Origin: Saururus chinensis
Lineage: Eukaryota > Streptophyta > Magnoliopsida > Piperales > Saururaceae
Direction: 5' to 3'
Length of the DNA stretch: 64,000 nucleotides
NCBI GenBank assembly: GCA_035235625.1
Contig: CP141145.1
Location: forward strand, 2,046,001-2,110,000
Positions 3,081 through 34,916 of this stretch are shown here, piece after piece. A program made the translations under genes and the position numbers. Each line of letters opens with the position of its first letter. Position 1 is the stretch's first letter. Below the pieces are notes generated by a model. That model was not told the origin of the DNA. It saw only the letters and a list, made by a program, of their open reading frames with translations, and did not search any database.

Positions 3081-4989
3081 ATACGGTTCTCCTCAGTTTT
3101 TCTGCTCCTCTTTCTATGTTGCTCTACTTGGGAACAAGGCACTTTTGTTTCCTCCTGTGGAGACCTCCGAAACATAAGCCAACCTTTTTACCTTAAAGGT
3201 GATCCTGTCGCCAATCTTGATCCAGAGCATTATTATGGTGAGCTCACTTGTGATGGCACTTGTGATGTTGCAATCAGACATTCGCAACATTAGAAACGGA
3301 GTTCGGAATTAACGCCACCTTGCTCGTCAAATCAATAGAGTACGAGAATGATACCATCCACCTTGTCGATCCGGGCCTCAAAAGTGATAATTGCACTTGT
3401 CTACCTCTCAATAGACTGTCAATGGAAAGAAGAATCTTTTGGCCGTTTTCTTTTAGATATGATTGGCTGTATGTTGTTGTAATTGTCAAATGCCATTCTA
3501 TGGTCACAGACCCTTCATATATAGGAACTTTTCCTTGCCTCAACAGCTCTTACGGATACTACCTGTATGTGATCATCCAGGGTTCTTTTTTTAATCTCCA
3601 TGACAATTGCAGTGTTCTAGCTTCCACCCTTGCACCTATTGAAAGAGGAGATGTCAATCTTACTTATGTTGAGATCCACAAGAGGATGATTATGGGCTTT
3701 GAACTTTTTTATTATACTCATACATCGCTTGACTTTCGTTCTCCTTGTGAAAGGCGCTTCGAATGGCCTCAATGTGAGTGTTCAGAATTTTGTATGGACC
3801 TTTTTATGTTAACATTATTTTTCAACATATAATTAAAAAGCACTTTCAGATGCAAATCATGCTTTTAATTATCTTCAAAACAATTTAATGCAAATTATCA
3901 ATGTTATATATAATTAATTCGCTCATACAATTTGCAGGTTTTTTTAAAGCAGCATGGGAAGAAATTGAAGGTAATTCTTAGGCAGCATGTTTAATTCTTC
4001 TTTGTAATTTCTCTCATATTTTATTGCTGCTTACAATCATCTAATGACGTTGCAGTTTTTTTATCAAAAAGCCTTCCAATAGGTAAGAAATTCTCTCTGA
4101 AACTTCTTTTGCTTTGATCTATTGATCAATATATCTAACCGCTTTTTATATAATCTTTTGATGCGAGAAGAACGCATATTGATAGCCAGATCATCTTTTG
4201 GAGTGTTTTGTCTGTCTCTTATTGTGATATACAAATTACTGAGGAGGCATTTGTCAATGGATGACTCAATTGAGGAATTCCTTTGTGAATACAAGAATAA
4301 CATCCCAAAGAGGTACTCTTATTGGCAAATTTTGAAGATGACCAACAACTTCAAAGAGAAACTAGGGAAGGGAGGTTTTGGCTCTGTGTTCAAAGGGAAA
4401 CTTCCAAATGGTTATCTAGTCGCAGTTAAGATGCTGTCCAAGGGCAATGGGAAGGACTTTATCAATGAAGTGGCCACTATTGGAAGAATTCACCATACAA
4501 ATGTGGTGCAGCTGATTGGTTTCTACTCCATGGGAACGAAAAGGGCTCTTATCTACCAATACATGTCAAACGGTTCTTTGGACAAGTACATATTCTCTAG
4601 AGAAGATGGCCACTCCTTGAGTTGGGACGTACTATACCAGATTGCACTAGGCATTGCTCATGGGATTGAGTATTTGCATCGAGGTTGCAATATGTAGGAA
4701 TCACTTTGGATGCCACGAAGAGGAAGTAGGAATCATTTTGGATGCCACGGAAGATGAAATACAAATTGCCAAGAAGCTACTTATAGTAGGACTGTGGTGC
4801 ATTCAAATGAAGCCTATTGATCGGCCCTCCATGACCAAAGCTATAGAAATGCTAGAAGGAAGTGTGCACCTTCTGCAAATGTCACCAAAGCCTTTCTTAT
4901 CATCTCCTGAACGGGCCCCACTTGATGATTGGAGCATCAGCATAGAATCATCTTCATCTTCAGTCATTCATCACTTAAATTCAGACTGA
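3081..4989 (+). pseudogene. LRK10L-type receptor-like kinase, kinase core deleted
   Basis: Relic of a membrane receptor kinase of the LEAF RUST 10 disease-resistance-like family. Exon 1 (about 3081-3773) gives a hydrophobic signal peptide, then SCGDLRNISQPFYLKGDP and IHLVDPGLKS, hallmarks of the cysteine-rich GUB_WAK ectodomain. Two tiny exons (3938-3970, 4056-4082) and a kinase exon from 4168 join in frame at canonical GT/AG sites. A membrane segment lies near [14 protein letters not shown], followed by the glycine loop [11 protein letters not shown] and VAVKML lysine. After [11 protein letters not shown] (about 4690) the catalytic loop, DFG and APE segments are missing; sequence resumes in another frame with LLIVGLWCIQMKPIDRPSM and runs to a stop at 4987. 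Other damage: ATA at 3081 where the start ATG would fit, a frameshift near 3285, and a stop at 3291. It cannot encode an active kinase. Confidence 0.9.
4693..4757 (+). repeat. 32-bp tandem duplication at the kinase deletion point
   Basis: TAGGAATCACTTTGGATGCC and TAGGAATCATTTTGGATGCC sit side by side exactly where the kinase loses its core. The duplicated block brackets the deletion breakpoint and suggests imperfect end joining. The inference about mechanism is mine. Confidence 0.7.
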
Positions 4990-5023
4990 GAGTTTTGTCA
5001 TTTAACTTTTTGCCCTACTTGAT

Positions 5024-5700
5024 GATTACAACAAAAATAACTTTTTGCAACAAATTTGTTTGCAACATAAATACTTTTGTTGCTAATAGTGAGCGTGTGC
5101 AACAAATATTTTAAAATGTTGCAATTACTATACAATTTTGAAAATTGTAAGGTTTTTTACAACAAATTGTTTCTTTTGTCGCTAAAAGGTGGACCTTTTG
5201 GGATAAACTTATTGCAACAAAGACACTTATGTCGCTTCTAGTGATCTTTTGTCATGATTGTTGATATTTGTCGCAATAGAGCTTATGTGCTTGCAAAGTG
5301 ATAGTTCTTTTTGAGGCAAAACAAATGTGATGTTGCAAATTGGTATATCGTTTGCAACAATACATTATATGTGTCGCAAAAATAATTTACTTTTTGCAAT
5401 AAATCGTTTTGTGTTGCAACAAATTGAATGTTTTTGCAACATAATATGAGTGTTGTGGCATTAGATTTTAATAAATATTTATGTATACATTTTTAAATCG
5501 AAATTTGGAAGTCATTTGCAACAACATGTCTTAATCATGGCAAAAAATATATACATATATATTTTATGATAATAATCAAAATTATTGAAAGGGTATTTGC
5601 AATAAATAAATTGTGGTGTGGCAAAAAGTTCTTAATCGAAGATATTTAGTGACAAAATGCTAAATTGTGACAAATAGTTTTTACTAAAATAATGTGATAA
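5024..5700. repeat. CACTA 5' subterminal repeat array
   Basis: At least a dozen dispersed copies of TTGCAACAAA, TTTGTTGCAA or TTTTGTCGC-like words in both orientations. The phrase AAGGTTTTTTACAACAAATT at about 5150 recurs as AAGGTTTTTTACAATAAATT near 25060, tying the two ends together. In known CACTA elements such arrays bind the TNPA-type protein; that role here is inferred. Confidence 0.6.
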
Positions 5701-7941
5701 TGAAAAAAGAATAATTTAAAAAAAATGAGATGAGCTTTAGAATATAATAAATAATATAATATTTACAATACATTTCTCAAAAAGTGTAAAAAAAGTGTTA
5801 TTTGCGAGAATTGTAAGTTGGAGTAAAAGAGTCACTATTTGTAATATTTTTATATAATTTAAAAAAAAAATTATTTATTAATTATTTAAATATTAATTAA
5901 ATAATATTATATTATAAATAAAGACAAATAAAAAATTAAAAGTAATATTATAAAATCAAAAGGAATAATATTGAAAATATAATATTTATAAATTTTGCAA
6001 ATTCAGTGTGAGTCAAGTAACATGAAATCCCAACACTATCTAAATAAATTGTAAACATAAATATGATCCATTTTGGTCGATTGTGTCATGGCTGGATTGC
6101 ATATATATTTGATACAAATGGCATCCTTGACCTTGAATAAAGTATATAGTTAGATAAAAAACAATCAATATGCTCGAGCATGAACCCATTTGGACAATGC
6201 ACTATTATTAAACTCATACATAATTATATTCAGTTAAAATATAAAACTTTTTTAAAATTTTATAAAAAATATGTGTAAAAATAATTAAAATTTTAAATCG
6301 GTAAATGGTCCATATTAAAATAGCAAAAAAGATTGAGAAAAAGTTTGTTATATATTAATAGCTTCATTATGTTAAATTTAAGTGAATAGATACTTAAAAG
6401 AAGTGGTAGTTACGGGTAAGGGTGCTAATGAGCTAAGTCAAACTGATCAGCTTTAGGGTTTTTTTACTTAAACTTGATTTCTCAAAAATTAACTCATTCT
6501 CGATCGAAAACTTACACACTCGGCTTGGCTCAATTTGTCAAGGAACGTGAAATTTGACTTAAACTTGAGATCAAAATATAGTACAAGAGTTGAACTTTAC
6601 ATTTGAAATAGGATCGAATCCCATTTACAGCCCAAATACATTTTTTTATAAAAGATTATTTTAATTTAGAGAATCACACCAACATAAAAAAATAATATAT
6701 AAAAATATATGGGTTTCACTTTTTAGGAAAAACTACTATTTTCTAAAGGTAGCTATTAATATAGAATAGAAAGAATAACATGTAAGATAATTCCATGTTT
6801 TCATGATGTGCACAAAAAAATAGTTAATTTCATGGCATATTATATTATTTAATGTTATGTTTATTATATAAATTTTAATATATGGAATTTTTACCTAAAA
6901 AATGTTTATAAGAACCTCATGCATATTTGAGCACAAGCATCAATTACATCTAAGCCACACAATTTTAATTGTAAAATCTGTGTTACTCACGAGAGACACA
7001 CGATTATATCTGCTAACCTCCCTCGTGATACCCACAAAGTTGGCTCATCGACCGCTTTCTAGGCTGATCTAAACCATCAAAATGCAGGTTCTACATGGCC
7101 CATAGGCATGGAAGGTAGTATATATACATATGATGGTAGTAATGATTATAAATACAGGTAAGCGTTGATGTTATGCTTGGTACACGCTGAAACAGTCGTA
7201 ATGCCTTTGATACACATAAAAAAATATTATGAATAATAATATATCATTATAATATATTTTAAAAAATTAAAATACATTTAAATAATGTATGATATATACA
7301 TATAAAAAGAATTTAAATTTATATTAATAATGTATGATATAAACATATATAATATGTTTTTCTTATGTTATTATATTATATAATATAATTTATGTTGAAA
7401 CTAGACATTGATATTATATTTTAGAGTTCTATTTATATGAGCCTGTGCTCACAAGCGCTTGTGTGAGACTAGATATTGTGCATTTTCGAATTTCGATACG
7501 ATGACATGCATAACTCATGGCCAGATTAGTTTTTTCCTTGTGCCATTGATATGACGATTATGACTTTCGGGCTCATGTAGATAAGCATGAGCTTAGGCTC
7601 ATAAAACTTTTTTCTAAATAATTATTTTAATTTAAAAGAATATATTTATATTAAAAAAATTTAAATATTTTTTATAATATTTTATTAAAATGGCTAGGGA
7701 TAGCTAGGGTTGAGTATATTACCGACCATGGGTTAAAAAATGTGGACCGAATTGCTGATTTAGCTTGTGTTTGTGGGATGGGCATCGATTGTTGTTTTTA
7801 TAAAAAAGTAATTACCTGCCCACATACTTAAACAACTATTTTCCTTGCTTGCCAATTTCATATGCCTAGCATAGGCTAAAACTTATTGTATGTTGTAGAT
7901 AGCAAAACCCGGACCGACCCATTAATTTGGGCCTATACTAA
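5701..7941. other. AT-rich spacer, no gene seen
   Basis: Long AT-rich sequence without an open frame of note on either strand. I see no coding similarity, tRNA-like structure or repeat boundary. It lies between the 5' repeat array and the GC-rich leader of the proposed CACTA element. Confidence 0.4.
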
Positions 7942-8083
7942 GTGGGCCCAAATTAATATTTATTAAAAAAACTACCAAATGTTAATAATCAACCAAAAAA
8001 GAAATTACTTGTGGGCCCAAATTAATATTTATTAAAAAAAGAAACTACCAAATATTAATAATCAACTAAAAAAGAAATTACCA
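7942..8083. repeat. About 70-bp tandem repeat, two copies
   Basis: Units at 7942-8010 and 8011-8083 both start GTGGGCCCAAATTAATATTT and differ by a few substitutions and a small indel. No known function. Confidence 0.85.
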
Positions 8084-8109
8084 AATCGAACCGTACTTCC
8101 CTTTCCCGC

Positions 8110-8470
8110 CAATCATCCACTCTGCCCGCTGCTTGTTTCCAGGAAGATCATCAATGAGCCCCCTCATCCGCGCGCCTTCATCTGCTCCCCGAGTGAAATC
8201 CCGTTTGCCCTCATCCGTGCGGCTTCCTCTGCTCCTAAACCATTATTCAGACGGAGTGAGGTCCCGTTTGCCCTCATCTGCGCGTATTACTGCCTCTACT
8301 CTTAACCTCTGCTGCAAGAAACCCGTTTGCCCTCATCAGCCTTCGTCCCTCTGCTGCTAACCTCCGCTGCTAGCAACCCGGTTGCCTTCACCCGCCTTCG
8401 TGCCTGCTCCTATCCTCCGCTGCAATTGATTTAGGACAATCACTATTTCTTTTGTCAACTTCCAGTAAGT
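8110..8470 (+). repeat. GC-rich degenerate minisatellite, possible CACTA promoter or leader
   Basis: Four diverged units of about 55-65 bp share CCCGTTTGCCCTCATC. The block is much richer in C and G than its surroundings and ends at TTCCAGTAAGTATT, which resembles a splice donor. GC-rich repeats followed by a long first intron precede the transposase in many CACTA elements, so this could be the promoter and non-coding first exon of the gene at 16620. The open frame at 8133-8360 is a repeat by-product. Confidence 0.4.
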
Positions 8471-8616
8471 ATTGTTGTTTTTCCTATTCTTCTTATAAGG
8501 AAAACGTTGTTATCTTTGTTATGTGATGTTACTGGCGCGTCTCTCATTGACGGTTGCCTATCAAAGTATGACGGATGCTGTTTGTGTATCAAAATTCTTT
8601 AAGATATCTATTTTTC

Positions 8617-8690
8617 ACTTCAAAATATCTATTTACTATGTGCTATAGTAAGTAATGAAAGTCTTAAATGAATTACGACGGTGGTTTGTT
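8617..8690. repeat. Direct repeat, left copy (partner 9628-9700)
   Basis: CAAAATATCTATTTACTATG and the following 50 bases recur about 1010 bp downstream with few changes. The two copies bracket the annexin exon and the exon-like segment, so they may mark the insertion or duplication that brought those in. Confidence 0.8.
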
Positions 8691-8962
8691 TATGTTCTTG
8701 GTAATTTGTCATTGGATTGCCCTTGCTTTTACTGGGTCGTGTTTTATATATATAACAGAATTGCCGTTTCTTTTTATAATTGTGTGTAAGATTAGATAAA
8801 TGCTCATGATTAGGATAAATATGTCTTTCTCAATGTCTCGATGTTAATTGAAGGTTCAACTCTTCCTCTTTCCAAGTTTCTTTACTATCTATTGTGCCCA
8901 CCATCAACAAGACAAAAGACAGAATGATAACAAACCAAACAGATGGAATTGTAAAATAGTAC

Positions 8963-9178
8963 CTTTTTCAGTGAGTTACCATATGTATGTTGGTAGGAGA
9001 CAGAGACAGCAGCCATATGTGCTCTGCTTCTGGTACTGAAGAGTCTGATAAACGTATTTTCATCTGTACCCAATATTTTCTCTCCAGCCTTAAACAGATC
9101 TTTTGCATCCTTTTCTACCATCATTTGGTCAACCTCTGGGCCTTCATAACGTGGAGTGCTTACATAACAAAGAAGCAC
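8963..9178 (-). pseudogene. Annexin exon fragment (captured)
   Basis: A single 216-bp open exon encodes about 72 residues matching the middle of a plant annexin (calcium-dependent membrane-binding protein): [13 protein letters not shown], then [20 protein letters not shown] and [16 protein letters not shown], the helix pattern with the GTDE loop of an annexin repeat. It has an AG acceptor before 9178 and a GT donor at 8962-8961, and no stop. I could not find neighbouring annexin exons, so it is a one-exon fragment antisense to the CACTA transposase, most simply host sequence captured by that element. A whole annexin gene is about 300 residues. Confidence 0.85.
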
Positions 9179-9425
9179 CTGAAGAAAAGAGAAGATTTAC
9201 GTAGTTTTAAATCAATTTATCTGTTAGTGTGACCATAAACAAGTAGGAGGATCACAGTCAACATATTACACACACTGAAGATTTATTCGGAGTAAAAAAC
9301 ATTCAATAAAAGGTTAACAATAAATGCCTTATCCAAACACGTGAGGGTTATACAGTCCTGATCATTTTTATCTGCACTATTGCCATTTTATGCTGGCTGC
9401 AACTTGATTCAAGCGTTCCCTCTAC

Positions 9426-9561
9426 CTGAGCATGCCAGGAGGGAAATATGGGATTTTATATTGAATCCTATAAACACTATTCTGGTCGACAGCAAGAAAT
9501 GGAATTTCTTGATCTTTCATAGTAATATGCCATGTTTCGTCAATGGCCAAGCCAAATGCAT
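9426..9561 (-). pseudogene. Unrecognised exon-like open segment
   Basis: Minus-strand open segment of about 45 codons reads AFGLAIDETWHITMKDQEIP then FLAVDQNSVYRIQ and IPYFPPGMLR, followed by a good donor (CAG/GTAGAG at 9425). It looks like real protein sequence, not noise, but I do not recognise the family. It lies on the same strand as the annexin exon 250 bp away and may be another captured exon. The plus-strand frame here is its shadow. Confidence 0.35.
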
Positions 9562-9627
9562 AAGGTAGATCTAAAAGTCAAAATTCCAAAATTCATTATA
9601 TAGATTAATTTTCTCATTTTCTTCTCA

Positions 9628-9700
9628 TTTCAAAATATCTATTTACTATGTGCTATAGCAAGTAATGAAAGTCTTAAATGGATTACGACAGGGGTTTGTC
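9628..9700. repeat. Direct repeat, right copy (partner 8617-8690)
   Basis: Second copy of the block starting CAAAATATCTATTTACTATG, lying about 125 bp before the Copia 5' LTR. The sequence between it and 9824 shows nothing else recognisable. Confidence 0.8.
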
Positions 9701-9824
9701 TGTTTACAGCTGGAAAGTATTGCCCATGTTTAGTATACTATGTGGCTAGATATGTGCATCATGCTTCATGTCTTTGTTTGAATATTGAAAATAGTGTCTA
9801 TACTAATAAAACGAATTTCAGGTC

Positions 9825-10015
9825 TATTAAAGGAACCAAATCCTTACCCTATCACATTTTTTTCTTTTTTCATTCATATTGTGATTCTATGTAATATTCT
9901 CATAATCTATTGTAATATTTTTAAGGGATTGACCCTAGATTTATCTCCAAGGGTCTTCCCTATAAAAGCCTATAAAAACACCATTATTATTTTATTAAAA
10001 CTCTCTTCCTCTTCA
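9825..10015 (+). repeat. Copia 1 5' LTR
   Basis: Begins TATTAAAGGAACC and ends CTTCCTCTTCA. It contains CCCTATAAAAGCC near 9959, a convincing TATA box. The partner is 14971-15161. Confidence 0.9.
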
Positions 10016-10030
10016 TGGCATCGAGAGTTA
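10016..10030 (+). other. Copia 1 primer-binding site
   Basis: TGGCATCGAGAGTTAG directly follows the 5' LTR and resembles TGGTATCAGAGC, the complement of initiator Met-tRNA used by plant Copia elements. Confidence 0.65.
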
Positions 10031-10714
10031 GTGGCTAAAGTCCTTCCTCTTCTCAACATACTGTGTGGCCACTTTTGTCCCACGAGTCACTCTCTGTCCC
10101 TCCTCGAACCATTCCTCTCCCTGTTATTCCCATCACTTCCTCTCAGTTTCCACTATACTTTCTAACCCTCCCACCTGCAGTCTCAAGCCCAACGCGTCAT
10201 CACTGGTCTCTCTTCCCGTCACTGTTCACTTTTCCCATCAACCCCTATCTCTCTCCCCTGCAACCTCGATCCCACCACCCGGCATCCTCACTGTTCATCC
10301 TCCCCATTTCACAGAGCTCTCCTCCTCCCTACTCGCAGCCGCTCAACCAGCTGCCGGCCACCGCCCCCTGCTCAGTCCCGTCGTTCTCTAGTTCATGGTT
10401 TCCCATCTCTGATCCCTCTCTATCCCCTGCCCCTCACCACCAGTAACTCCCTCCGGTCGGTTTCCCGTCACTCTCTTCTTCATCTCCAGCCAGTCGCTCC
10501 CATCATCTCACATCCCGCCGCGTTCTTCCCCTCCCTCCAGCCAGTCGCCTCCTCTCCTTCAATCTCTCTGCCCTTCTGCGCTCAGTCTCCTCCTCCCTGG
10601 TCCATCCCCTTCCCCCTATGATCAACTCCCTATCTCTCCGGTCAAAAGCCAACGTTTCTCTTCCCCTCTCTCTGGCCAAGATCGAACCTTTCTCCGTTCG
10701 TCCCCTCACTCCCC

Positions 10715-13700
10715 ATGTATTCCTCCGCCTCTCCAGCACCCACCATCGCCTCCACCTCCTCCGATCACCCCTTGCCTGCCGTTCTCCCTACTGCGGTTGA
10801 TTTCCTTCAAACAGTCCCCACCTCCATCAAGTTTCTCGTTTTCAACCTCATCACTGTCTGTCTCGACGGATCCAACTTCCTGATCTGGCGCACAAACATT
10901 GCCTCCATTCTGGACACCTACTGCCTCCTACCCTACGTCGACGGCTCTCTGCTGTGCCCCTCGCCGGAGGATTCTTCTGCCCGGCCCTCTTACTCCGATT
11001 GGATCGCCACGGACCACCACCTGCTCGTGTTCCTCCGGGCCACCATCGATCCGACTCTCGTTTGCCACTTCCTCAACAACACCACCACCGCAAATCTTTG
11101 GACTTTTGTGGCTGCCCGCTATTTGTCCGCCTCTCCAGCCACAGTCATCCATCTCATGGGAGAGCTCGGCTGTTGCCGCTTCGGCCCAACCAGCATGGTA
11201 GCCTACCTCGATCAGCTCTGTCAATTGGTCGACTAGCTGGCGGTCGTCGGAGTACTGATCAATGACGCTGATTTACTGCACCAAACTCTCGCCGGCCTAC
11301 CTCCTGACTATGCTGCCTTCGTTGTCGACATTCGTGCTCGTGGTGCCATTGTTCCTCTTGCCGAACTGTGGAATCTTCTCTTAGCCGAAGAAGCCGCCCT
11401 CAAACTTCAGCACGATGTTCCCTCAGGACCGCCGCTAGCCCATCCCACAACCCTTCTTGCCGCCGCGGGTAGCTCTCCCTCTGCCTCTAGCCTTCAGGAC
11501 TTCCTCGGTCCCCTCATAGCGGCCCTGAGCCAAATCCTCCTCGGCCCCCCCTCGGGTGTCCCACCTGCTGCCATGGCCCCCTCACAAACTACTGCCACTG
11601 CTTTTGCAGCACCGGGACTCCTTCCCACTCCTCCTGTAACGCAGTATCGACCCCCCCGCCCCAACTTTCATCACGGGGGTGGGAGTAACCCATGTTACGG
11701 CCATGGGCGTGGTGGATTCCGTTCCTCACACCCCGCCTGCCAAATATGTGGCTCCTTTGATCACAGTGCCATTAAATGTGGTGCCCGTTACAATGCTTCT
11801 TACATGGGTCCCACCAGGAACCGTGCCCTGGCCATGAGCGTTCAAGGAGGGGTCCCACGCCCCTCTGATTGGCTACTAGATTCCGGTGCAAGTGAACACA
11901 TTACCCCGGATGTGAACCACCTCACCACTACCTCTCCCCACCTTGGCCCCCCTTATGTCAACATAGGTAATGTTCAATCCCTTCCAGTCTCCTCCACTGG
12001 TAGCTCCTCCCGCCCCCTTCCTTACTCTACACTCCACCTCCCTACTATCCTCCACACACCATCTATCGCCCACAACCTTCTCTCCATTCACAAAATTGTG
12101 CGTGACAATGATTGCTCTCTAACCTTCTCTACCTCTAATGTATCTATTCAGGATAACAAAACTGGTCACCTCCTCTATCGTGGTCCAAGTCGAAATGGCA
12201 TCTACCCACTCTCCCCCCCCCCCCCCCCCCCCCAAGTGTCTTCACCGCCACTACCTCTTCCTCTACCACCTGGCATCAATGACTTGGCCACCTTGCCTCC
12301 GCCACATTCAACACCGCCATCTCTTCTTTTCCTTTCCATGTTACCAAAATAATGTACTTAGAGTGTAATAGTTGTCATGTTAGAAAATCTCATAAATTAT
12401 CCTTCTCCCTGTCCCATCGCTCCACTACTCGCCCCCTAGAACTCATCCACTCTGACCTTTGGGGATCCTCTCCGGTCACCTCCTTCCTTGGCTACCAATA
12501 TTACATTATCTTTGTAGACGACAACTCTCACTATACTTGGCTCTACCCCCTAAAACTCAAGTCGGACGCTTATGACACCTTCCTTACCTTTCAATCCATG
12601 GTCGAAAATACCTTCCCCTACTGTATCACCACCTTCCGTTTTGACAATGGTCGCGAATTTGTCAACTCCTGCTTCACCTCTCACTTCCACACTCGCGGCA
12701 TTACTCACCAATTTTCTTTTCTTCATACCCCCGAACAAAATGGAGTTGCTGAACGCAAACACGGCTACATCATTGAAACCACTCTAACCCTACTTACCTC
12801 CGCCTACATGCCTTCCGCCTATTGGGTTGATGCTGCCTACACCGCCACCTACCTCATCAATCGGCTTCCATCCCCCACCCTCCATCATACATTCCCTTAC
12901 CAACTCCTTCACAATACCCCTCCTGACTACTCCCACCTTCACGTCTTCGGCTGCCGATGTTATCCTTGGACCCGCCCTTCCTCACAACACAAACTCGACG
13001 CCCGGTCTGTCCCCTGTGTCTTCATCGGCTATTGTCCCACCACCAAAGGCTATCGTTGTCTTGACCCCTCAAGTCATCGAGTCTACATCTCTCGCCATGT
13101 CCGCTTCCTTGAAAATGACTTCCCCTTTCGCTCCCTTTCCCCATTAGCCCCACCCATTCCCCCTCTTCTTTCGCCCCTACCCCTACTCCCCACCTCTTCA
13201 TCCCATCCCCCACAACCTCCCTCCCCTTCGCCTTTCCCTCCTCTCTCCCCTACCCCTCCCTCTTCGTCCCTCCCCTCTCCCTCTTCTCCCTCCCAACACT
13301 CTCCTCCCCCTCCCGTCTCCCCCACCCTCTCACTTCTCCTCTCCCTCCTGCCGCCCCTACCCACCACATGATTACCTGTAGCAAAGCCAACATCTATCAT
13401 CCTTGTATTCCTCTTTCCCTCACAGCCCAATCCTCCCCTGACACAGAACCCACCTCCTACCGTCTTGCCTCTCACATTCCAGAATGGTGTGATGCCATGC
13501 GCTCCAAGTATGGGGCGCTCCTCCGTTAAGGCACCTGGACCCTTGTCCCACCCCCACCCGATTCCAACATCATTGGCTGTAGGTGGCCCTGATGGCACCA
13601 TCTCTAGGTACAAGGCACACCTGGTTGCCAAAGGCTTCACTTAGGAAGAAGGCCATGAAACCTTCAGCCCCGTGGTCAAGCCTTATACCATCCGCATTGT

Positions 13701-14958
13701 CCTCAGCCTCGCTCTCTCCAATGCTTGGGCCATCAATCAACTTGATGTCTCTAATGCATTCCTTCATGGCACCATTGAGGAGGAACTCTACATGGCACAA
13801 CCCCCCCCCCCCCCTCCCCCACCGGTTTCATTGATCCCTCCCACCCCCACCATGTCTGCCGCCTCCACAAAGCCCTCTACGGCCTCAAACAAGCCCCCCA
13901 TCAATGGTATGCCAAACTTTCATCCTACTTAATCCACCTTGGCTTTCAGTCTTGCCACGCTGACACATCTCTCTTCCTTCACCAACAAGGCTCCCAAATC
14001 ACCATCCTCGTCGTCTATGTCGATGACATCCTTATCACCGGCTCCCATGCTCCCTTTATTGCACATGTCATATCTCTTATCAGTCGTGTCTTTGCTATCA
14101 AAGACCTGGGTCTCCTTCACCACTTCCTTGATATTGAGTTCACTACTACCCCTAACGGTTTCTTCCTCTCTCAAGTTCACTATGCTCGCGACATCCTCCA
14201 TCGTGCCCAAATGGACCACTGTAAACCCACCCCTACTCCCACCGGCCACAAACGACCCCCCACCTCCCCCATTGACCCCCTCTTCCCTGACCCATCCCAC
14301 TACAAAAGCATCATCGGTGCTCTCCAATACCTCACCCACACCCGCCCAGACATCGCCTATTCTGTGAACTATGTTTGCCAACATATGCATAACCCCACCA
14401 TTGCCCACTATGCAGCCGTTAAGCGGATCCTCCGGTATCTTCAAGGCACTCTCTCATGGCATTCTCTTACAACCAGGGCCCTGTACTCTCACTGCCTTAT
14501 CTGATTCCGACTGGGCCAGTGACCCTATTGACTGCCGATCCGTCACTGGGTACTGCATCTTCATGGGTCCTAACCTCATAATTTGAAAGTCTAAAAAGCA
14601 AGCCACCATTGCCTGCTCCTCCACTGAAGTCGAGTACCGTGCACTCTCCTCCACGGCTACAAAAATTGTCTGGGTCTCCATGGTTCTCAAATTTCTAGGC
14701 ATCTCCTCCACTGCTACACCCACACTACTGTGTGACAATCAGTCTGCCATCGCTCTCACAGCCAACCCAGTCTTCCATGCTCACACCAAACACATTGAGA
14801 TCGATCATCACTACATTCGGGAGCAAGTTCTAGCAGGTCACATGCAGGTCCGTCATGTCTCGTCCAAAGATCAACTCGCCGACATACTTACAAAGCCGCT
14901 GCCCATTGCTCAGTTTCAGACTCTCACTACCAAACTCATGGCTACTCACCCGCCCTGA
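10715..14958 (+). pseudogene. Copia 1 gag-pol polyprotein, broken
   Basis: Gag starts at ATG 10715; the zinc knuckle CQICGSFDHSAIKC (near 11740) and the protease motif WLLDSGASEHIT (near 11868) follow. Integrase shows HSDLWG, FDNGREF and TPEQNGVAERKH, the D,D,E residues (12450-12760). Reverse transcriptase has [19 protein letters not shown] and YVDD at 14016-14027; RNase H has SDSDWASD and KHIEIDHHYIRE, ending at 14958. Damage: stop at 11235, a TGA in the integrase zinc region (HQ-stop-LGHL near 12275), stops near 13528 and 13642, and frame changes at C-runs 12213-12233 and 13801-13814 and near 14500. Codons end in C far more often than in nearby DNA. Confidence 0.9.
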
Positions 14959-14970
14959 GTTTGCAGGGCG
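14955..14970 (+). other. Copia 1 polypurine-like tract
   Basis: TGAGTTTGCAGGGCG lies between the polyprotein stop and the 3' LTR, in the position where second-strand synthesis is primed in Copia elements. One C interrupts the G run. Confidence 0.5.
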
Positions 14971-15161
14971 TATTAAGGGAACCAAATCCTTACCCTATCA
15001 CATTTTTTTCCTTTTTCACTCATATTGTGATTCTATGTAATATTCTCATGATCCATTGTAATATTCTTAAGGGATTCACCCCGGATTTGTCTCCAAGGGT
15101 CTTCCCTATAAAAGCCTATACAAACACCATTATTATTTTGTTGAAAATCTCTTCCTCTTCA
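14971..15161 (+). repeat. Copia 1 3' LTR
   Basis: Aligns end to end with 9825-10015, with about 14 differences and no indels that I can see. It contains the same CCCTATAAAAGCC box. Confidence 0.9.
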
Positions 15162-16619
15162 CGCTCAATTTTTGTTGCAAAATGGTTTTCCTGCCAGAGT
15201 TCTCATTTCTTATAAAACTAACCTGATTTGATCAATAGTTCATGCTTTATTTATTGTGATATGGTTAAGTAAACAGTTCAGAAGCTTTTGTCTTGTTATT
15301 TAGCATCTGTCACGTAAATAGTTTCTATATTTCATAAAGTAAATGTTTATCAACATCTATCCTAACATCTATGTGGCAGCAATTGGAAATTCTCTACCAT
15401 TTTATTCATAGTTTCTATGTGGTTTTAAATTCAAGATGCAACATTTTTCTGGTTCAGGCATAGTTTTCTACTGTTATTCATGCAAATAACTGCTGCACAC
15501 TTCTCTTCCATATTATTTAGTCGATGCTGAGGTAGTTATGGTTGCTTGTTAACTACTTGAATAGGCAATCAACTTTGTTTGGGAATGCTTAAATAGTAGA
15601 TTTTCTGAAACTTTCCTTTGTTAAAAAAACCTACAACTCTCATTATGCAATCATTTTCTCTCATTATTTAGCCATCCCATTACTTGTTTCACGTTTTTCA
15701 TTATTTTGCCAACGTCTTTTACTAGTAATCTGAAATATTTCCTTTGTTTACTATATATTTTCTTGAATGCACAACCCTTCTTTTCACATTGATCTGACGG
15801 ACTGATTCTCGGAGTTCGCCATCGATTAGTGCTTTAGGGAATGAGAACGCAAGTCTCTTAATGGTGTCCCCTGTGGTTTATATATTTAAGTAATGTCTTT
15901 GTTCTCTGTGCGTCTTGTTTCTTTATCTTCCTTTTCTTTTCTTGACAATAGACAGTCTTGTGTCCGATCTTTTCAACCCCTCTACTTGTTGAATCTCCTC
16001 TCTCTTTATGTTTTTATTTAAATTCCCGTTGCAGTGTATCTCTATATACCTTATAAAAATGTTGGTTGAAATTTCATGTATATTTTTTTTAAATGGGTGT
16101 AAAAAACTTCATCATCATAATGGTCAGCACCTTATCACTTGTGCTTTATCTGGCATTATATGAGTTCTTATCTGATGGTGACTTTGAAACTTCTGTTTCA
16201 TGTTCTCTAGTTTTCAAGAATCTATGAACTCTTGAGCTCTTTGGTAGATCAATATATGATACTGGTGTGGAGAATATAAAAGATTTGAAGTCATTAACGC
16301 ATTTAAACCTCTCTCAGAACTCAGGCCATACACACAAAACCTTGGAATTGGTTTCATGTACTTAAACCCTTGGTATACTAGGACTAGATAATAATATGTC
16401 TGATTTCACTTTTAGTTGCACAAAATTAACTAGCTACATATACATACTATTAAAATTTTTCTCACATAGTGCAAGATCTAATATCTTGGGTTTGAGAAAA
16501 TATTTGAAGTGCAATTAATAATAGTAGATTTGTTTAATTAAGATGCATGACCTCAATTTCTATAGTTGCACTAAGGCGTGAATGCATTAACTCTTGTTTA
16601 TTGTAAGTGGAAGGTTGCT
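15162..16619 (+). other. Intron-like spacer before CACTA transposase, no gene seen
   Basis: T-rich sequence with many pyrimidine tracts and no coding similarity on either strand. It ends just before the transposase ATG at 16620. It fits the long first intron of the CACTA gene, but no transcript evidence exists. Confidence 0.4.
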
Positions 16620-19600
16620 ATGGATAGAAGCTGGATGCAACTTAAAAATAGGGCTTCTAAAGATTATATTAATGGACTAGAAGATTTCATGAAAGTTGCA
16701 TGACATCATATTGACAAAAGTAACAAAATTCGGTGTCCATGTCGGACTTGCAAGAATGTGTATTACAGAGATGTAGATGAGGTTCATTACCACTAGTATT
16801 AGAATGGCATAGAGGGAACATACACCAAGTGGTATTTCCATGGTGAAATGTTTGAAGAATTGATGGAAGATGAGGATGATGATGATATTGACAACAATGA
16901 AGGTAGAGATGTGAATGCCATGCAAAAAATTCTCGAAGACTTACATGCAGGAACATTTAAGGATACACGTCCGGATGAAACATGCATGCATGAGACTTAT
17001 TCACCAACAAGAGAAGCATCCAGTAGTCAGGATTCACGTACTTTCCATGGGGATCAAGGCAAGTTCACACAACTTTTGAAAGATCTTGAACGTGAACTTT
17101 ATCCAGGTTGCCGGAAGTATTCAAAGTTGTCTTTCTTGATAAAGTTGATGCATATTAAGTTAATAAATGGATGGAATAATAAATCTTTCAATATGGTTAT
17201 TGAGTTGTTTAAGGATACATTTCCTGAAGGAGAGATGCTGCCCAAATCACATTATGAAGCAATAAAAATTTTGCGAGACTTGGGGCTTGCATATGTGTCC
17301 ATACATGCATGTATAAATAATTGTATCCTGTTTTGGAAAGAGTATGAAAAAGCTAATAAGTGTCCAAAGTGTGGGGAATCTAGATACAAATATGACAATA
17401 GAAAGGGTAAATCAACTCCAAATAAAGTTTTGCGCTACTTTCCCCTGAAACCGAGATTGCAAAGGTTATTTATGTGCAGAAAGGCAGCTTCAAATATGAG
17501 GTGACATAAAGAGAAACACATGGATGATCCAAATGAGAAGGTACTAAGGCATCCGGCTTATTCGGAAATATGGCATGAATTTGATAAGAAGTATGGATGG
17601 TTTGCAAATGAACCACGAAATGTTCGGCTTGGACTAGCCAGTGATGGATTTAATCCATTTGGGAATATGAGTAATGCTTGTAGTATGTGGCCAGTGATAC
17701 TTATTCCCTACAACTTACCACCGTGGATGTGCATGAAAGAACAATTCTTCATGATGTCATTGCTAATTCCCAGTCCAAAATTGCCTGGAAATGACATCGA
17801 TGCATACTTGGGCCCATTAATAGATGAGTTAAAAGAATTGTGGGAAGATGGGGTGGATACTTACGATGTGTCAAAGAAGGAGTACTTTCAGATGCATGCA
17901 ACATTGTTGTGGACTATTAATGACTTTCTAGCTTATGGAAACTTATCTGGTTGGTGCACTAAAGGCAAATTGGCATGTCCAAATTGCAACAAGGAGACAT
18001 CTTCCCATTATTTGAAACATGGAAGAAAGATTAGTTATATGTGTCATTGTCGCTACCTTCCACATGATCATTGTTGACGGAGACAAAGAAAGGAGTTTGA
18101 TGGTTATCAGGAGAAAAGGTTAGCACCTAAACAATTATCCAGATGACATGCTTATGCAATTGTAGTCGGTTAAAGATGTTGAGCTTGGAAATGCTCCAAA
18201 TAAAAAAATGAGAAAACGTTTTCTAATTGAGTTGAATTGGAGGAAAATGAGCATATTTTGGAAATTGCCTTACTGGCAATCTCTTAAGTTGAGGCACAAT
18301 TTAGATGTCATGCACATCGAGAAAAATATATGTGACAATGTGCTAGGAACAGTGATGGATATAGAGGGAAAAACAAAAGACAATGTGAATGCACGACTAG
18401 ATATGATGGAGATGGGTATCAAGAAGGAATTTCACCTCATTCCAAATGGTGACAAACATATAGTGCCACGCGCTTGCTACACATTGTCATCTGATGAAAA
18501 GAAAAAGTTTTGTGCATGGATGAGATTTGTTAAATTTCTTGATGATTTTGCATCAAACATCTCCCGGTGTGTAAACATCAAAGAAAATAAGATATCTGGT
18601 ATGAAAAGCCATGATTGTCATGTTTTGCTACAATGATTGCTCCCAGTTGCTTTATGTGGCTACTTGCCAAAGGATGTTTGCAATGCATTAATTGAGTTAG
18701 GCTTATTTTTTAAGGCATTATGTTGCAAGACATTGAACTTGAATATGTTGGAGAAAATGGAGAAAGACATTATCATCATATTGTGCAAGCTTGAAAAGAT
18801 ATTCCCACCTTTATTCTTTGATGTGATGGTGTATTTGGCTGTTCATCTTCCGCGTGAGGCGATTCTTGCCTAACCTGTGCAATATCGATGGATGTTTTCT
18901 ATTGAAAGGTTCTTACACACTTTGAAGGAATATGTAAGAAATAAAGCATGCCCAGAAGGCTCCATTGTGGAAACTTACATTGACAACGAATGCATGAATT
19001 TTTGCTCTATGTACTTTGATGATATTGAAACAAGATTCAATCGACAAGAGCGAAATTATGATGGTGTTCAATAATCATACAAAGGTCTTTCTGTTTTTTC
19101 TCCAAATGTGCGACCTATAGGTGCTGCAACTCATTATAAAATGAGTGTACATGATCTTCACAAGGTTCGAATGTATGTGTTGAATAATTGCTCGCAAATT
19201 GATGACTATATACAGTAAGTAAACTATTCGTTATTATAGACCTTGTCCTACCTATTTTTATTCATGTCAAATTCTCATCAACTTAATCTGCAGGGAACAC
19301 AAACAATACATTGAGAGCCAAGGGGAAACAAACGTGCAACTAAGGCATGAATAAGATTTCCCAAATTGGTTTGAGGAACATGTAAGTGTTTCGAAATATT
19401 AGGACACAAACACAAAGTACAATTTAAAATTAAATTATCCAAATTCATAATCATTTATGATTAACTTTTTTAATTTTTATATAGATGAAACAATTGGACA
19501 CAGAAAAATTGCTAGAAGCTAATGATGAATTATATGCATTAGCTTGTGGTCCTAATCAGCGAGTAATGAGGTACCCTGGGTGTGTTGTTAAGGGTATTAG

Positions 19601-20258
19601 GTTCCATACTATAGAGCGCGACCAATATCGTAAAACTCAAAATTGTGGGGTTGTTGTGAAGGGAGAACATGATAGTCATGATATTGACTTCTATGGTGTA
19701 TTGACAGATGTTATTGCCTTGAACTTTTATGGTGGTAGATGGGTGTAGCTCTTCAAATGTAAGTGGTGGGATCTTAGCAACAGAAAAGGAATACACATAG
19801 ATGAGCATTTCACAAGTGTAAATTTCTCCCGTACTTGGTATAAAGATGATTCGTATGTGCTGGCCTCTCAAGCAGAACAAGTTTTATACCTTGAAGACAC
19901 AAAATTGAATGGAAATTGGCATGTCATTCAAAGGGCTCCACCACGAAACTTGCATGATATTCCTGATGTAGAAGTCAACATGGCAGAAGAAGAAATTATA
20001 GCAAACAAGGAAGATGACCAGTATGAGTCATATACTGTTGATAGGATAGTAGAAGATGAAGGCCATAATTTCAATTTGTTAAGCAGGGATGATATAGATC
20101 CAATTAATGCAGCAAACATTGCAGTAGATGTTATAGGGTTGGAAGCTGCTATAGATGATATAGATAAAAGTGATGAGGAAGATGATATATTGCTTGAATA
20201 TTGTGACAATGAAGAAGAATGTCTACCAAGTGATGATGATACTAACACAGATAATTAA
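16620..20258 (+). pseudogene. CACTA TNP2-like transposase (Transposase_21, DUF4218, DUF4216), broken
   Basis: Reads MDRSWMQLKNRASKDYINGL, then CPCRTCKN and TKWYFHGE. The core has LYPGCRKYSKLSFLIKLMH, KVLRYFPLKPRLQRLF, VRLGLASDGFNPFGNMS, LIPYNLPPWMCMK, TINDFLAYGNLSGWCTKGKL and LRHNLDVMHIEKNICDNVLG, all signatures of plant TNP2/TNPD. DUF4218-like sequence follows (18640-19070), then after an intron the DUF4216-like part (19485-19880) and an acidic tail to 20258. Stops occur at 16701, 16791, 16797, 17505, 18075, 18634, 18871, 19072 and 19746, plus a frameshift near 18150. Several stops replace tryptophan (TGG to TGA). It would have catalysed CACTA excision and insertion; it is now dead. Confidence 0.92.
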
Positions 20259-20433
20259 TATGGTAAAATCACTTACAAATCAAATCATTTTTTGTAACTA
20301 GTAATTTATTTTGCATCTTACAACTTTCTTGTGTGTTCTCTAACATTCACTTTTCATTGCATGTGTACTTTTTTCAGTATATATGTTGTACTTATTTAGA
20401 TTCTTACATGTTTATCATGTTATATAGGTTATC

Positions 20434-21990
20434 ATGGCACTTGGTGGACAAGCTAAGTGGTCAATAGTGTCAATTCATTCTGAATCCCAAACCATTGGAA
20501 CATCAGAGCAGCGAGCCCAAGGGTCTACTAGTGCTAACACAGGTGAAAATATCCAATAAAATATAGTTCAACTTATAATATATAACTTCATTGATATTCT
20601 ACATTCATGCCAATTATGTATAATGTTTTTTAGTTTTGTTTTCATCTGCTACGAATACTAAAAATGTGCATGGTAGAGCACTTGGGAATGCTTTGGCTAG
20701 GCATTTGAGGACAGGTGAAAAGAATCGTCCAAAGATTGTTTTTCCACTAGGGAAGTATAGACCGGAGGGACCTTGGGCTGTGTAATTTATGAGTGAGGTT
20801 GGCACTCTATGTCAATTGCATGCAAGCTTGATACATAAAAGGTGGTCTCATGTTCCTCTAGTTGATAAAACCAAGATATTCAGGCTAATTGAAGTAAGTT
20901 TACCCTATTATATTATGTTAGCATTATTTTTCCTATTGATTATAACTTAATATCTTAACTTTGGAATGAATGTTTTAATTTAGGCGAAATTTGATGTTGA
21001 TTTGACTGAGGAACATGTTAAGACGGGGCTGAATAAATACTTGGCTGCATGGTACAGAGCTTTTAAGAGTAGAGCACATAAACACTACTTGAAACATGAT
21101 AGTGAACAGGCATATGATGGGATTTCACCCGATGAGTGGGCAAAAATTTGTGACATTTTTTATGATACTAAATTGAAAGTGAGATTGTATTGTTTTACAA
21201 AACATTAAATTCATTTCAAATATCTCATTTTTATGAACTTTCATTAACAATTTGTGAGATGCTCAACAAGATAGGAGTGAAACAAACAAGAATAGCCGTA
21301 GCAAGATAGAGTCCAAACATTGTGGTGGTCGAAAGGCCTTTGTCACTATCCTCTCTGAGATGGTACAAAATTCATGTATTTTAATTTAGCTTTGTACAAT
21401 TATTCAATTATTGAATCATGTGGAACACTTGTACTAATATATTATTGTGGTTGAATACAACATCTAGCGAGATACGGAGACACAAGAGGAGCCTAATAGG
21501 ATGACTCTTTATAAAAAAAACTCATTTTCATGAAAATGGCGATGGTTGGAAGAATGACTATTGTAAACAAACATATGTAATGACAGCTACATTTTCAATA
21601 GTATGTTAGAAAATGATATTGTGATACTTGATTTGGTTATATATGTTTCACTACAGAAAGAAATGGAGGAATTGCCGGAAAAACAACATGAGGCAGCTGA
21701 ACCAATGAGTAAAGATGAGATATGTGCAAAAGTTCTTGGTTAAAGTAGTGGGTATGTGCGGGGCCTTGGACATGGCAAGATCCCTCCACTACTTGCCAAA
21801 CATAAACATGCAGATGATATTCAAAGGGCCAATATGAGGGCTAACACAGCTGAGAAAAGAGCAGAATCCTTGGAAGTTGAGATGCAAACAATTAAAGCAA
21901 CAATGGAAGCCCGTGATGTATAGATGCAAAGCAGACACGCTCAATTAGAGGCAATGGTGCAACAACTATTCGATCAACAACGCCCACATT
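20434..21990 (+). pseudogene. Second CACTA gene, Transposase_24 / Ptta-En-Spm-like, broken
   Basis: Follows the TNP2-like gene on the same strand, the usual CACTA order. A short first exon starts at ATG 20434; later exons give GRALGNALARHLRTGEKNRP, FMSEVGTLCQLHASLIHKRW, FDVDLTEEHVKTGLNKYLAA, SPDEWAKICDIF and SKIESKHCGGRKAF, the pattern of the plant En/Spm-like Transposase_24 family, whose TNPA-like members are thought to bind subterminal repeats. A coiled-coil-like tail (about 21820-21990) contains EICAKVLG-stop-SSGYVRGLGHGK. A stop after GPWAV (20782) and two in the tail (about 21741, 21921) inactivate it. Exon limits are approximate. Confidence 0.8.
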
Positions 21991-22423
21991 GAGGTAATTT
22001 TTAACTCTTTACTAAAATTATGTTAAGATCTCATATGTTGCATTATTTATGGTATATTGTTCATAAGTAGGACACGATGCTCACGAAGGCTCGTACTTTT
22101 GTTGGTGAATAGCTCAGTTAGTGCAAGTGATCGACTTTGCAGAAGCGAATGAAGCTAGTGATTTAATAATTCTTTTTTAGGAATAGATGTGATCTTTAGG
22201 ATGTCATAGGTGTTGAAGTTGGCTCTCTTCCATTTATAGGATTCAATAACAAAACTTTTGGATATTGCAAAACTATTATCCATTGAAAAAGTGACGTCTT
22301 TTTTTAATATGGATAGGAAAGCTATATATGATATTTCTTTTGGACTGAATTGTGCAAGTGATTTGTACATGCAAGAGCAATAAATCTTTCTTTATCACTA
22401 TATTTCTTTAGCTTATTTTGCAG
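21991..22423. other. Unassigned sequence in CACTA body
   Basis: No convincing coding match. Minus-strand frames of 63-71 codons here are short and featureless. Confidence 0.3.
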
Positions 22424-22478
22424 TTCTAAATAACCAAGCGATAGTGATGGATGTTGGTTGTGGCACTGGAAATATGAG
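22424..22478 (+). pseudogene. Possible methyltransferase exon fragment (SAM-binding motif I)
   Basis: A 55-bp segment with an AG acceptor before and a GT donor after encodes LNNQAIVMDVGCGTGNMR. VMDVGCGTG is motif I of class I SAM-dependent methyltransferases and is especially like plant protein arginine methyltransferases. It is too short to name a gene, and chance cannot be excluded. Its place among other captured host exons makes capture plausible. Confidence 0.4.
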
Positions 22479-22890
22479 GTAACATCCATATTCAGGTTCT
22501 TTTTTATTGCCACTTCTTGTTAGTGTCTTCTCTGTTTTTTCTAATTATGGGATTTTTTTGATTGAACAAAAACTAAGATCATAGCAAGCCTGCTGATTGT
22601 GAATCTAATCAGATGTTATTGTGAACCTAATTCGCTTCATCTTTTCCTGCTGGATTATGTGTATGGCTATTTGCATTTCTGAGATATTTTTTCTTGTAAG
22701 TCATACCTCTAGAGCAAAGACTTAGCTTTAACTGAAACTTGCTAAGTAATTTTTCTTGTAAGTCCTAAATGTGAATCCAGAAAATAAAGGTCAGACTTTG
22801 TACTTTGTCTTTTTCATTTTGAAATCTATATTGACTCTCTCTCCTTGAATTTAATTGATATAATTGATAATAAATGACCTTGTCATGTAG

Positions 22891-23705
22891 GATAAGAGAA
22901 AAGATGCTGTGAAGAAAGTCATTGCTGCAATGACCATTGGGAATGATGTTTCATGATTATTTACGAATGTTGTAAACTGTATGCAGATGGAGAATTTGGA
23001 TTTGAAGAAGCTGGTCTACTTGTATCTTATAAACTATGCCAAAAGCCAACCTGATCTAGCTATTCTTGTTGTGAATGCACTTGTCAAGGTTAGTGACCAA
23101 ATCTAGCTGCTCATGTCATAATCATAGGAAGTTGATAATTTGGTCTATCAACATGGACTTCAAGTCATCTCGGATTTGCAGTTTAGCCCAGTCTTTTTCA
23201 GCCCAATCTTTTGCTGTTTCTTTAGCTTATTTTGCTTCAGCGTAATCTTTTTCAGCCCAATTTTTTCAGCTCTATCTTTTGCACTTCTTCTTATACGGCA
23301 TTGTGTAAGCTGCCTAATGCCTTTTTTTTACTTTCTTCTGGTCATCTTATTTTTGACAGGATGATGATCCTTATGTTTGAAAAATAGCTGCAATTTGTGT
23401 TGCCAAACTTTATGACATAAACGTTGAGCTTGTAGAAGACAGGGGATTCCTTTAAACTCTAAAGGATTTGATTTGTATTAATAATCCAATGGTAGTAGCA
23501 GCACTTGCTGAGATTCAAGAAAATAGTAGCTGTCCTATCTTTATGACATAAACGCTGAGCTTGTAGAAGACACGGGATTCCTTGAAACTCTAATGGATTT
23601 GATTTCTACCAATAATCCAATGGTAGTAGCAGCACTTGCTGAGATTCAATAAAATAGTAGAATGTCGCTCTCAAAGCTCTTGACTGCTCTTAACGAAAGT
23701 GCACT
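22891..23705 (+). pseudogene. Beta-adaptin (AP-1/AP-2 large subunit) fragment (captured)
   Basis: Exon 22891-23088 encodes [40 protein letters not shown] and [17 protein letters not shown], the N-terminal armadillo-like trunk of clathrin-adaptor beta-adaptin. Splice sites are intact on both sides, with one TGA inside. After 270 bp of T-rich filler a second exon (from 23360) gives DDDPYV-stop-KIAAICVAKLYDIN and [17 protein letters not shown]; the exon that should lie between is missing. The second exon carries a tandem duplication (23411-23537, repeated to about 23660), then LSKLLTALNES. The full protein has about 890 residues, so this is a small relic, probably carried by the CACTA element. 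Confidence 0.88.
23411..23665 (+). repeat. Tandem duplication inside the beta-adaptin relic
   Basis: The block from TTTATGACATAAACG to GAGATTCAAGAAAATAGTAG is repeated almost at once, with substitutions such as GACAGG/GACACG. The first copy begins near 23411, the second near 23540. Confidence 0.85.
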
Positions 23706-23924
23706 GAGTAAGCATGAATTAAGTCTTATTCATTGTATCCATTTGGAAAATGATATACTCAGTTCAGTTGGCTTACAATATATGTTGAATTAATGATTCT
23801 CTCTTCAATGTCTTTTCTGCTAATGTTTCTAGCTCTATACAAGTCCAATTTCATTGTAGACCTTCACAAATCCATTTTTTGTGCTTCAATATTGGAATTT
23901 TTTGGATAGCTATAACCACATATT

Positions 23925-24494
23925 GTGCTTGGTATTAAGCTGGGAATGAAACCCAAAGAAGCAGTCTCAAAAGTTAAAACACTATTTGATGTTGATGGAT
24001 TGTGTTTATCTTTTACCAGTAAGCGTGACTCTTCTAATCCTGTCCTTGCTGTCAAGGTATTGAAACTAATTAGATTTACACGAATATAACATGTGTAAAC
24101 GGTTTAGTTGTTGATTATTGTGATTGGCGCATGAATTTTTGCATGAGGAACCCTATACGGTAGAAGACATTGAGAAAATCACAGAGGAAATTCTACCCTC
24201 AGTATTGGAGCATTCACCAACATCATTATTTGTCTTGGCTGCAGGTAAGCATTTTAAGTTATTTCAGTTACCTCTCTTGTTTTTTTTCCTATGTGAAAAT
24301 TTGATGCTTTGCAGCTTGTCATTTCATGATTCTTGTCCTTGATACATTGGGGCTTCTGTTATGTAACCGTCACCTCTTCCTTTTGTTTTCTGACTAAGTT
24401 TAGTGTTAATGACTGAATTACAGAGGGTATCACATGTATACTTTGAGGCTAGGCGTGTTCATCCTTTCAAGGACATCGTGCAATTAGAGCTCAG
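23925..24494 (+). pseudogene. Galactokinase fragment, three exons (captured)
   Basis: Three exon pieces in order encode galactokinase-like sequence (phosphorylates galactose at C1). The first (about 23925-24056) reads [31 protein letters not shown] and NPVLAVK and ends at a GT donor. The second (about 24131-24244) reads EFLHEEPYTVEDIEKITEEI and SPTSLFVLAA, then GTAAGC. The third (24424-24494), after CAG, reads RVSHVYFEARRVHPFKDIV. These fit the C-terminal half of plant GAL1-type galactokinases. Introns are kept, so the source was genomic DNA, not cDNA. The acceptor of the second exon is degraded. The ATP-binding N-terminal half is absent. Confidence 0.75.
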
Positions 24495-24619
24495 GTGCGT
24501 ATTCATTTGCCAGTTATGAAGAATGAATTAAAATAGTCTTGCCACTTTTGCAACATCAATTCTAATATCTAAAGCTCGTGATTTGTAAATTCTGCATCTT
24601 TGCTATTTATTCTACATAG

Positions 24620-24765
24620 GATCTTGGGGTGAAGGTGTTATTCTTGGAAACAGTGAAGTTGAAAGATTTATTGAACGATATACCTCTACCGCTAAGGATT
24701 TTGCATCCAGAGATCTCTTTCCAAGATCAATGACCATGGAACTTCGTGAAGGTCATGGAGTAAAT
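24620..24765 (+). pseudogene. Succinate dehydrogenase flavoprotein (SDH1) exon fragment (captured)
   Basis: One exon after an AG acceptor (24618-24619) reads [38 protein letters not shown] and LREGHG. This matches the flavoprotein subunit of mitochondrial complex II around the FERYAPTAKDLASRDVVSR-type segment. No stop interrupts the exon, but no other SDH1 exon is visible. It lies only 125 bp after the galactokinase relic on the same strand, so unrelated genes have been joined. L-aspartate oxidase has a related segment and is the main alternative. Confidence 0.85.
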
Positions 24766-24879
24766 AAGTCAGGCACTGAGCTATCTTGGGATCTATCATT
24801 GACAACTTACTTAGTAGAATATGAAACAAAGATAGAGCGACCCATGACACACCAAGCTATCTTAGGATCTATTTTGCTA

Positions 24880-25205
24880 CTAAATTTGTTTGTCCTAAAT
24901 AGTTATGTACACACTTTTGAGACAAAATTATTTGTTGCAATTACATGATACAATTTATTAGAAGCATATCTTACAACAAAAACTGTTTGTGGCAAACATA
25001 TTTTATCCTTTTGGGACGATTAGTTGTTGTTGCAAATACTACATATATATAATTTTAAAAGGTTTTTTACAATAAATTCATTTTGCCGCAAATAAAAAAT
25101 TAAATTTATTAATTTTTTTAATTTTTTACACAATTTTTTTGTCGCAAAAACAAATATATATTATTTTTTATAATTCTTTTTGCAACAAAATAATATGATT
25201 GTAAG
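24880..25205. repeat. CACTA 3' subterminal repeat array
   Basis: Repeated TTTGTTGCAA, TTGTTGCAAAT, TTTTGCCGCAAA and TTTTTGCAACAAAA words match those at 5024-5700, including CCTTTTGGGA followed by GATTAG or TAAACT. The exact element end is unclear: I expect TTGTAGTG but see only ATTGTAAGA near 25200. Confidence 0.55.
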
Positions 25206-25422
25206 ACCAAATCTGTCATATTTACTCTGCGTGTACGTTATGTGATTCTCGCATATGGGGTGCAACATTTTTTTTTCTTTATGAACATGGGGCAGGACTC
25301 GCGGATACCCCCCAATTTGAGAACCTTAGGAACTCCGGAGACTTCACCTCCTACATTCTGCACATCACATTGTCCTGGCTTCCCACTAACACATCCGACT
25401 AAAGCTTCACTAAGGTTGAAAA
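25206..25422. other. Short host or element spacer
   Basis: Unassigned 217 bp between the CACTA 3' array and the second Copia LTR. Frames of 72-76 codons cover it on both strands but resemble nothing known. Confidence 0.3.
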
Positions 25423-26087: not shown

Positions 26088-26100
26088 ATTACTAAGATAT

Positions 26101-34911: not shown

Positions 34912-34916
34912 ACACA

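Follow-up and report, generated by a model that had tools for sequence, protein, structure and literature searches.

Pieces of at least four host genes, with introns, in a probable remnant of a CACTA-type transposon of Saururus chinensis

That plant CACTA transposons pick up gene fragments is already known: multi-donor capture has been published for soybean (Tgm-Express1) and wheat (chromosome 3B), and in grapevine and Chenopodium CACTA elements that bear a transposase are on record as having captured host fragments (what is said here of published elements draws on parts of the papers cited). The locus described here, positions 5024 to 25206 of a 64,000-nucleotide stretch of Saururus chinensis contig CP141145.1 (the window), is a good example of this and not a new system. 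The original prediction, made from the letters of the window alone, had taken it for an undescribed one, and had placed its right end one base short, at 25205; the same kind of locus is on record for all four of these plants. The reading that we favor, and consider reasonably probable, is that of a dead CACTA-type (En/Spm-like) remnant that took up copies of genomic pieces from at least four host genes.

How does the locus compare with its closest relatives in the literature? Tgm-Express1 is a CACTA element with exon and intron pieces of five unrelated genes, which give rise to chimeric spliced transcripts (PMC1947982). The Saururus locus resembles it in holding pieces of several unrelated genes (four donors here), with introns, between its ends. 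But Tgm-Express1 is 5.7 kb long, is described as being made up of its five gene fragments and sits in intron 2 of F3H, whereas the Saururus locus is about 20 kb long, has transposase genes and is dead. Grapevine Cactavine-5 (PMC2528002) likewise has a host-gene piece downstream of its CACTA transposase open reading frame (ORF), but from one donor (a PPR gene), in opposite orientation and in two copies; here three donors lie downstream, in sense orientation, and one copy was seen. CACTA elements of Chenopodium (PMC8978399) carry 5' gene fragments upstream of the transposase-associated domain, as the annexin fragment lies here, but from one donor gene per element in the cases looked at; the Saururus locus has more donors and a 3' block besides. 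For wheat chromosome 3B, 140 CACTA capture events have been reported, with 17 genes possibly formed via exon shuffling (PMC4290129). Break repair at CACTA insertions is named there as a route of gene duplication, the same one that is proposed below; the wheat cases are for the most part annotated genes with elements of a single family on either side, and some of these genes are expressed, whereas here there are only fragments. Soybean Tgmt* (PMC2613891) is of similar length (20.5 kb) and unites a Transposase_21 with a Transposase_24 domain, the counterparts here being the Transposase_21-type gene and a weaker Transposase_24-like one; it differs in that it has CACTA repeats (13 bp, imperfect) as well as an ATA duplication and is putatively autonomous, and captured genes are not noted in the parts of that paper drawn on here. 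Nor is the locus a Pack-CACTA (Pack-TYPE) element, that is, a non-autonomous one without transposase sequence: it has host DNA, and transposase genes too, and elements that match transposase are classed apart from Pack-TYPE (PMC8903248). A limited look at the open-licence literature yielded no published case of at least three donors in one transposase-bearing CACTA element, though such cases may exist.

The features that carry the argument are these (window coordinates):

5024..5620, no strand assigned: left terminus and subterminal repeat array, starting GATTACAACAAA (motif count, inverted pairing with the right end)
8963..9178, minus strand (antisense): annexin exon with acceptor CAG and donor GT (PF00191, PDB annexins, splice sites)
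16620..20252, plus strand: Transposase_21-type (TNPD-like) pseudogene (PF13963, PF02992, PF13960, PF13952)
20434..21993, plus strand: Transposase_24-like gene in the TNPA position, several exons, limits set by eye (PF03004)
22891..23708, plus strand: beta-adaptin exons and introns, with two in-frame stops and the stretch between two parts missing (PF01602, PDB beta chains)
23922..24494, plus strand: galactokinase, three consecutive exons (23922-24056, 24133-24244, 24424-24494) and introns
24620..24758, plus strand: exon of SDH1, the succinate dehydrogenase flavoprotein (PDB mitochondrial flavoproteins)
24810..25206, no strand assigned: right terminus with its subterminal repeat array; minus-strand sequence TCTTACAATCAT (motif count)

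The four donor genes had been named in the original prediction and are all backed by Pfam, PDB or protein searches. The annexin exon matches PF00191 at 6.6e-13 and annexins in the PDB down to 6.9e-29; beta-adaptin matches PF01602 at 7e-28 and AP-2 and AP-1 beta chains in the PDB down to 8.1e-49, the latter match consisting of two stretches with about 35 residues absent between them. (Both of its in-frame stops sit in the second exon.) The SDH1 exon matches mitochondrial SDH flavoproteins in the PDB down to 1.3e-12 and Pfam at just 0.011, under the cut-off. Six-frame Pfam scans within the element (E<=0.1; 9816-15267, a nested element plus about 100 bases beyond its end, omitted) recovered annexin and adaptin but missed galactokinase and SDH1. 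The galactokinase exons give no Pfam family and are weak in the PDB (four rows, of which recA takes the best two, at 0.00074 and 0.0059, and the related N-acetylgalactosamine kinase comes at 0.032); their identity was settled by a protein search. It returned 76 proteins, the best full-length galactokinase among them at 2.4e-14 and 87% identity; the closest full-length galactokinases are this EukProt sequence and one from Tasmannia lanceolata (82%), and the three exons align with residues 276-320, 321-360 and 365-385 of P0002. The highest-ranking row (1.1e-32) is no normal galactokinase but a Camellia model in which the exon occurs twice.

Most fragments have splice sites, as had been seen by eye: donor GT stands at 7 of 7 exons of the four donors (for the second adaptin exon and SDH1 it was moved one base by eye from its first placement, with plant gene structure as the guide) and acceptor AG at 5 of 7, both exceptions being galactokinase exons that read CAT, at 23919-23921 and 24130-24132, where CAG is expected. 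The fragments retain introns, and their source is therefore genomic DNA; to this extent the prediction of at least four host genes' fragments, taken from genomic DNA into a CACTA-type locus, stands.

Two lines of evidence assign the locus to the CACTA type. The first is the transposase. PF02992 (Transposase_21) scores 289.6 bits (cut-off 28.6), as expected of a CACTA transposase, and Transpos_assoc (82.8 bits), the two halves of DUF4218 (60.9 and 95.1) and DUF4216 (74.4) each exceed their Pfam cut-offs. The gene is broken by 11 in-frame stops relative to each of P0081 and P0095 (a Vaccinium and a Carya relative) and by 9 over the shorter alignment with P0194 (a Persea relative), counted in tblastn pieces. 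Two CACTA transposase genes had been predicted; this one holds up, and the second is a weaker candidate, its hand-joined exons scoring 25.1 bits with PF03004 (21.9 in the six-frame scan) against a cut-off of 28.7. Among the best 120 of 3225 relatives of the transposase, identity is 50-62% and none is close; those that are named are flowering plants, and these flowering-plant relatives have the same domain set.

The second line is the ends. Subterminal repeat arrays are a CACTA (En/Spm) trait, and arrays of one repeat family are present at both ends, as predicted. With up to 2 mismatches allowed and both strands counted, TTTGCAACAAA has 19 matches in 5024-5620 (dinucleotide-shuffle mean 2.4, maximum 8) and 11 in 24810-25206 (mean 1.1, maximum 6), numbers reached in 0 of 500 shuffles in either case, for array limits that were set post hoc, once the matches were known. 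When a 400-bp frame is slid along the 64 kb, each of the 14 densest placements listed begins at 4701-5401 or 24501-25001.

Was 5024-25206 mobile as one unit, and did that unit collect all the fragments, as the original prediction held? We infer that it was mobile as such. No cluster of TTTGCAACAAA that might mark an inner element end separates the transposase genes from the fragments (19774-24547 holds only matches at 19774, 23396 and 24547). Several observations weigh on the other side. There is no terminal inverted repeat that starts with CACTA: the termini are GATTACAA and TCTTACAA, not CACTACAA. No 3-bp target-site duplication fits, the triplets beside the termini being GAT and CCA; scanning near both ends for shared flanks of 3-5 bases gave one 3-bp match only, off the termini. 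The outermost 31 bases, read inward from 5024 and from 25206, pair at 20 positions, which is equalled by 1 of 2000 shuffles at fixed offset and by 11 of 300 once the offset is free: a modest inverted repeat. The annexin fragment has repeats of its own, which suggest that it came in as a separate, repair-type insertion and not as part of one collecting process. And nothing in the sequence dates the captures other than annexin relative to the loss of mobility: stop density is 2 in 349 codons in the fragments and 11 in 1090 in the transposase (p 0.75, no difference, on codon counts that are rough hand estimates), so capture before and capture after the death of the element are not told apart. MAFFT left the two termini unaligned. 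The ends at 5024 and 25206 are plausible ones, though decayed; because termini starting with CACTA are lacking, the claim goes no further than a remnant derived from a CACTA element.

The locus contains further features; the three repeats or insertions among them had been missed in the original prediction, as had the 11 transposase stops:

8612..8689, plus strand: left copy of a 78-bp direct repeat beside the annexin insert
9622..9699, plus strand: right copy of this repeat, 92.3% identical to the left
9825..15161, plus strand: nested degenerate long terminal repeat (LTR) retrotransposon with LTRs at 9825-10015 and 14971-15161 (LTR identity, domains)
22424..22478, plus strand: methyltransferase-like exon, not established (PF13489; AG and GT borders)
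23403-23529 and 23534-23660, plus strand: 127-bp tandem duplication in the adaptin exon, 92-93% identity

The annexin exon lies within an insert (8690-9621) that is bounded on both sides by the 78-bp repeat copies, and it is on account of these that separate insertion is suggested. Repair of a staggered break with foreign DNA as filler would leave direct repeats around the insert. Filler segments have been described following transposon excision (PMC4423477), and duplication via break repair at CACTA insertions in wheat (PMC4290129). The LTRs of the nested retrotransposon are 93% identical over 191 bp (91.5% over 201 columns in a second comparison), so that the 78-bp repeats, the LTRs and the adaptin duplication are about equally diverged; the three events may therefore be of similar age, with a wide error on such short stretches. 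The nested element has integrase and retroviral SH3-like domains at 12352-13368; its piece at 13939-14364 matched no family, and from domain order it is, by eye, of copia type.

On the favored reading, events would have run as follows: 1) A flowering-plant CACTA element would originally have had two transposase genes of its own, Transposase_21 followed by Transposase_24. 2) Genomic DNA of at least four host genes would have been copied into non-coding stretches of this element. Beta-adaptin, galactokinase and SDH1 would have gone, one after another and all in sense orientation, into the interval from the second transposase gene to the right array, and annexin, in antisense, into the region upstream of the first. 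3) Most likely this would have happened when double-strand breaks in the element were repaired and copies of other loci served as filler; the 78-bp repeats on either side of the annexin insert would be the sole direct trace of such an event. 4) Decay would have come later, with stops in the transposase, insertion of the LTR retrotransposon and drifting ends. The order of these events, like the repair mechanism, is a reconstruction.

The most serious alternative, unlikely though it appears to us, is that the fragments entered one by one, by break repair, into an element that was already immobile at this site, and never moved with the transposon. In its favor are the annexin insert with its own 78-bp repeats, diverged about as far as the nested LTRs and the adaptin duplication, and the decayed ends and 11 transposase stops. 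Yet three donors lie adjacent and in sense orientation in the space that separates the second transposase gene from the right array, self-BLAST found no direct repeat flanking this 3' block, and in three neighboring stretches scanned with Pfam in six frames (50-5023, 25207-30182 and 30183-35158; E<=0.01) no such mixture of host-gene fragments turned up.

More speculatively, a transposase-encoding CACTA element might have built up, stepwise, a sense 3' cassette of exons of at least three genes with their GT donors kept, so that read-through from the element's own transposase transcript could have spliced chimeric host exons. We regard this as improbable; if it were true, a single element would have both moved itself and gathered exons. 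Slightly less credence still goes to a hybrid of two adjacent CACTA elements whose facing ends were lost, enclosing the host DNA between them (the model put forward for Pack-CACTA; PMC13317346). It would place host DNA after the transposase part and inside the right end, where it is found, and it predicts the absence of inner ends, none of which is seen; a single such event would enclose one neighboring host stretch, however, and not pieces of three genes, so that extra rounds or filler would be required. Chance matches, or a piece of a real local host gene, can be dismissed for all four named donors: the methyltransferase-like exon alone is weak enough (E 0.055) for such an account, which is contradicted elsewhere by E values down to 7e-28 (Pfam) and 8.1e-49 (PDB), by the involvement of four different genes, and by in-frame stops and an adaptin with a missing stretch and a tandem duplication.

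The methyltransferase-like exon, listed with the others in the original prediction, remains unproven (13.6 bits against a PF13489 cut-off of 27) and is not counted among the donors. In the 5' part (5024-9814) the scan at E<=0.1 found, besides the annexin exon, only a sub-threshold PF07483 (0.029). An open stretch of 51 residues in the annexin insert (9425-9577, minus strand), coding-like by eye, matched no Pfam family, no solved structure at E<=10 and no protein candidate. Neither Rfam across the window at the gathering threshold nor a plasmid collection queried in near mode with 16600-22000 gave a match.

Five of the 76 proteins from the galactokinase search are Camellia models (P0001, P0025, P0039, P0044, P0046) in which galactokinase exons stand beside other matter: P0001 has the same exons twice, P0039 a ubiquitin-conjugating domain, P0044 GH127 and caulimovirus coat domains, and P0025 and P0046 sub-threshold P450 matches. 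Perhaps these represent independent captures of galactokinase pieces.

Judged from its genes, the window is nuclear DNA of a plant. As to the surroundings, 50-5023 contains a protein kinase fragment (4122-4989; PF07714, PF00069; receptor-like by eye), whose last ORF (4654-4989) ends 34 bases left of the element. Directly to the right, 25207-30182 holds degenerate copia-type retrotransposon domains (Pol_BBD, RVT_2, integrase, gag), while 30183-35158 gave nothing; 25425-26108 and 31098-31768 are 68% alike and are perhaps the LTRs of this retrotransposon. A sharper CACTA end, of another family, lies at 62698-63400, with CACTACAACAAAATG followed by many repeats of AGCGACGC type.

What the Saururus locus adds is a case of several donor genes within one transposase-bearing CACTA locus. 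The 78-bp duplication at its annexin insert points to break repair as one route by which host DNA can enter, and if other copies share the block of fragments, the order of capture would be directly readable from them.

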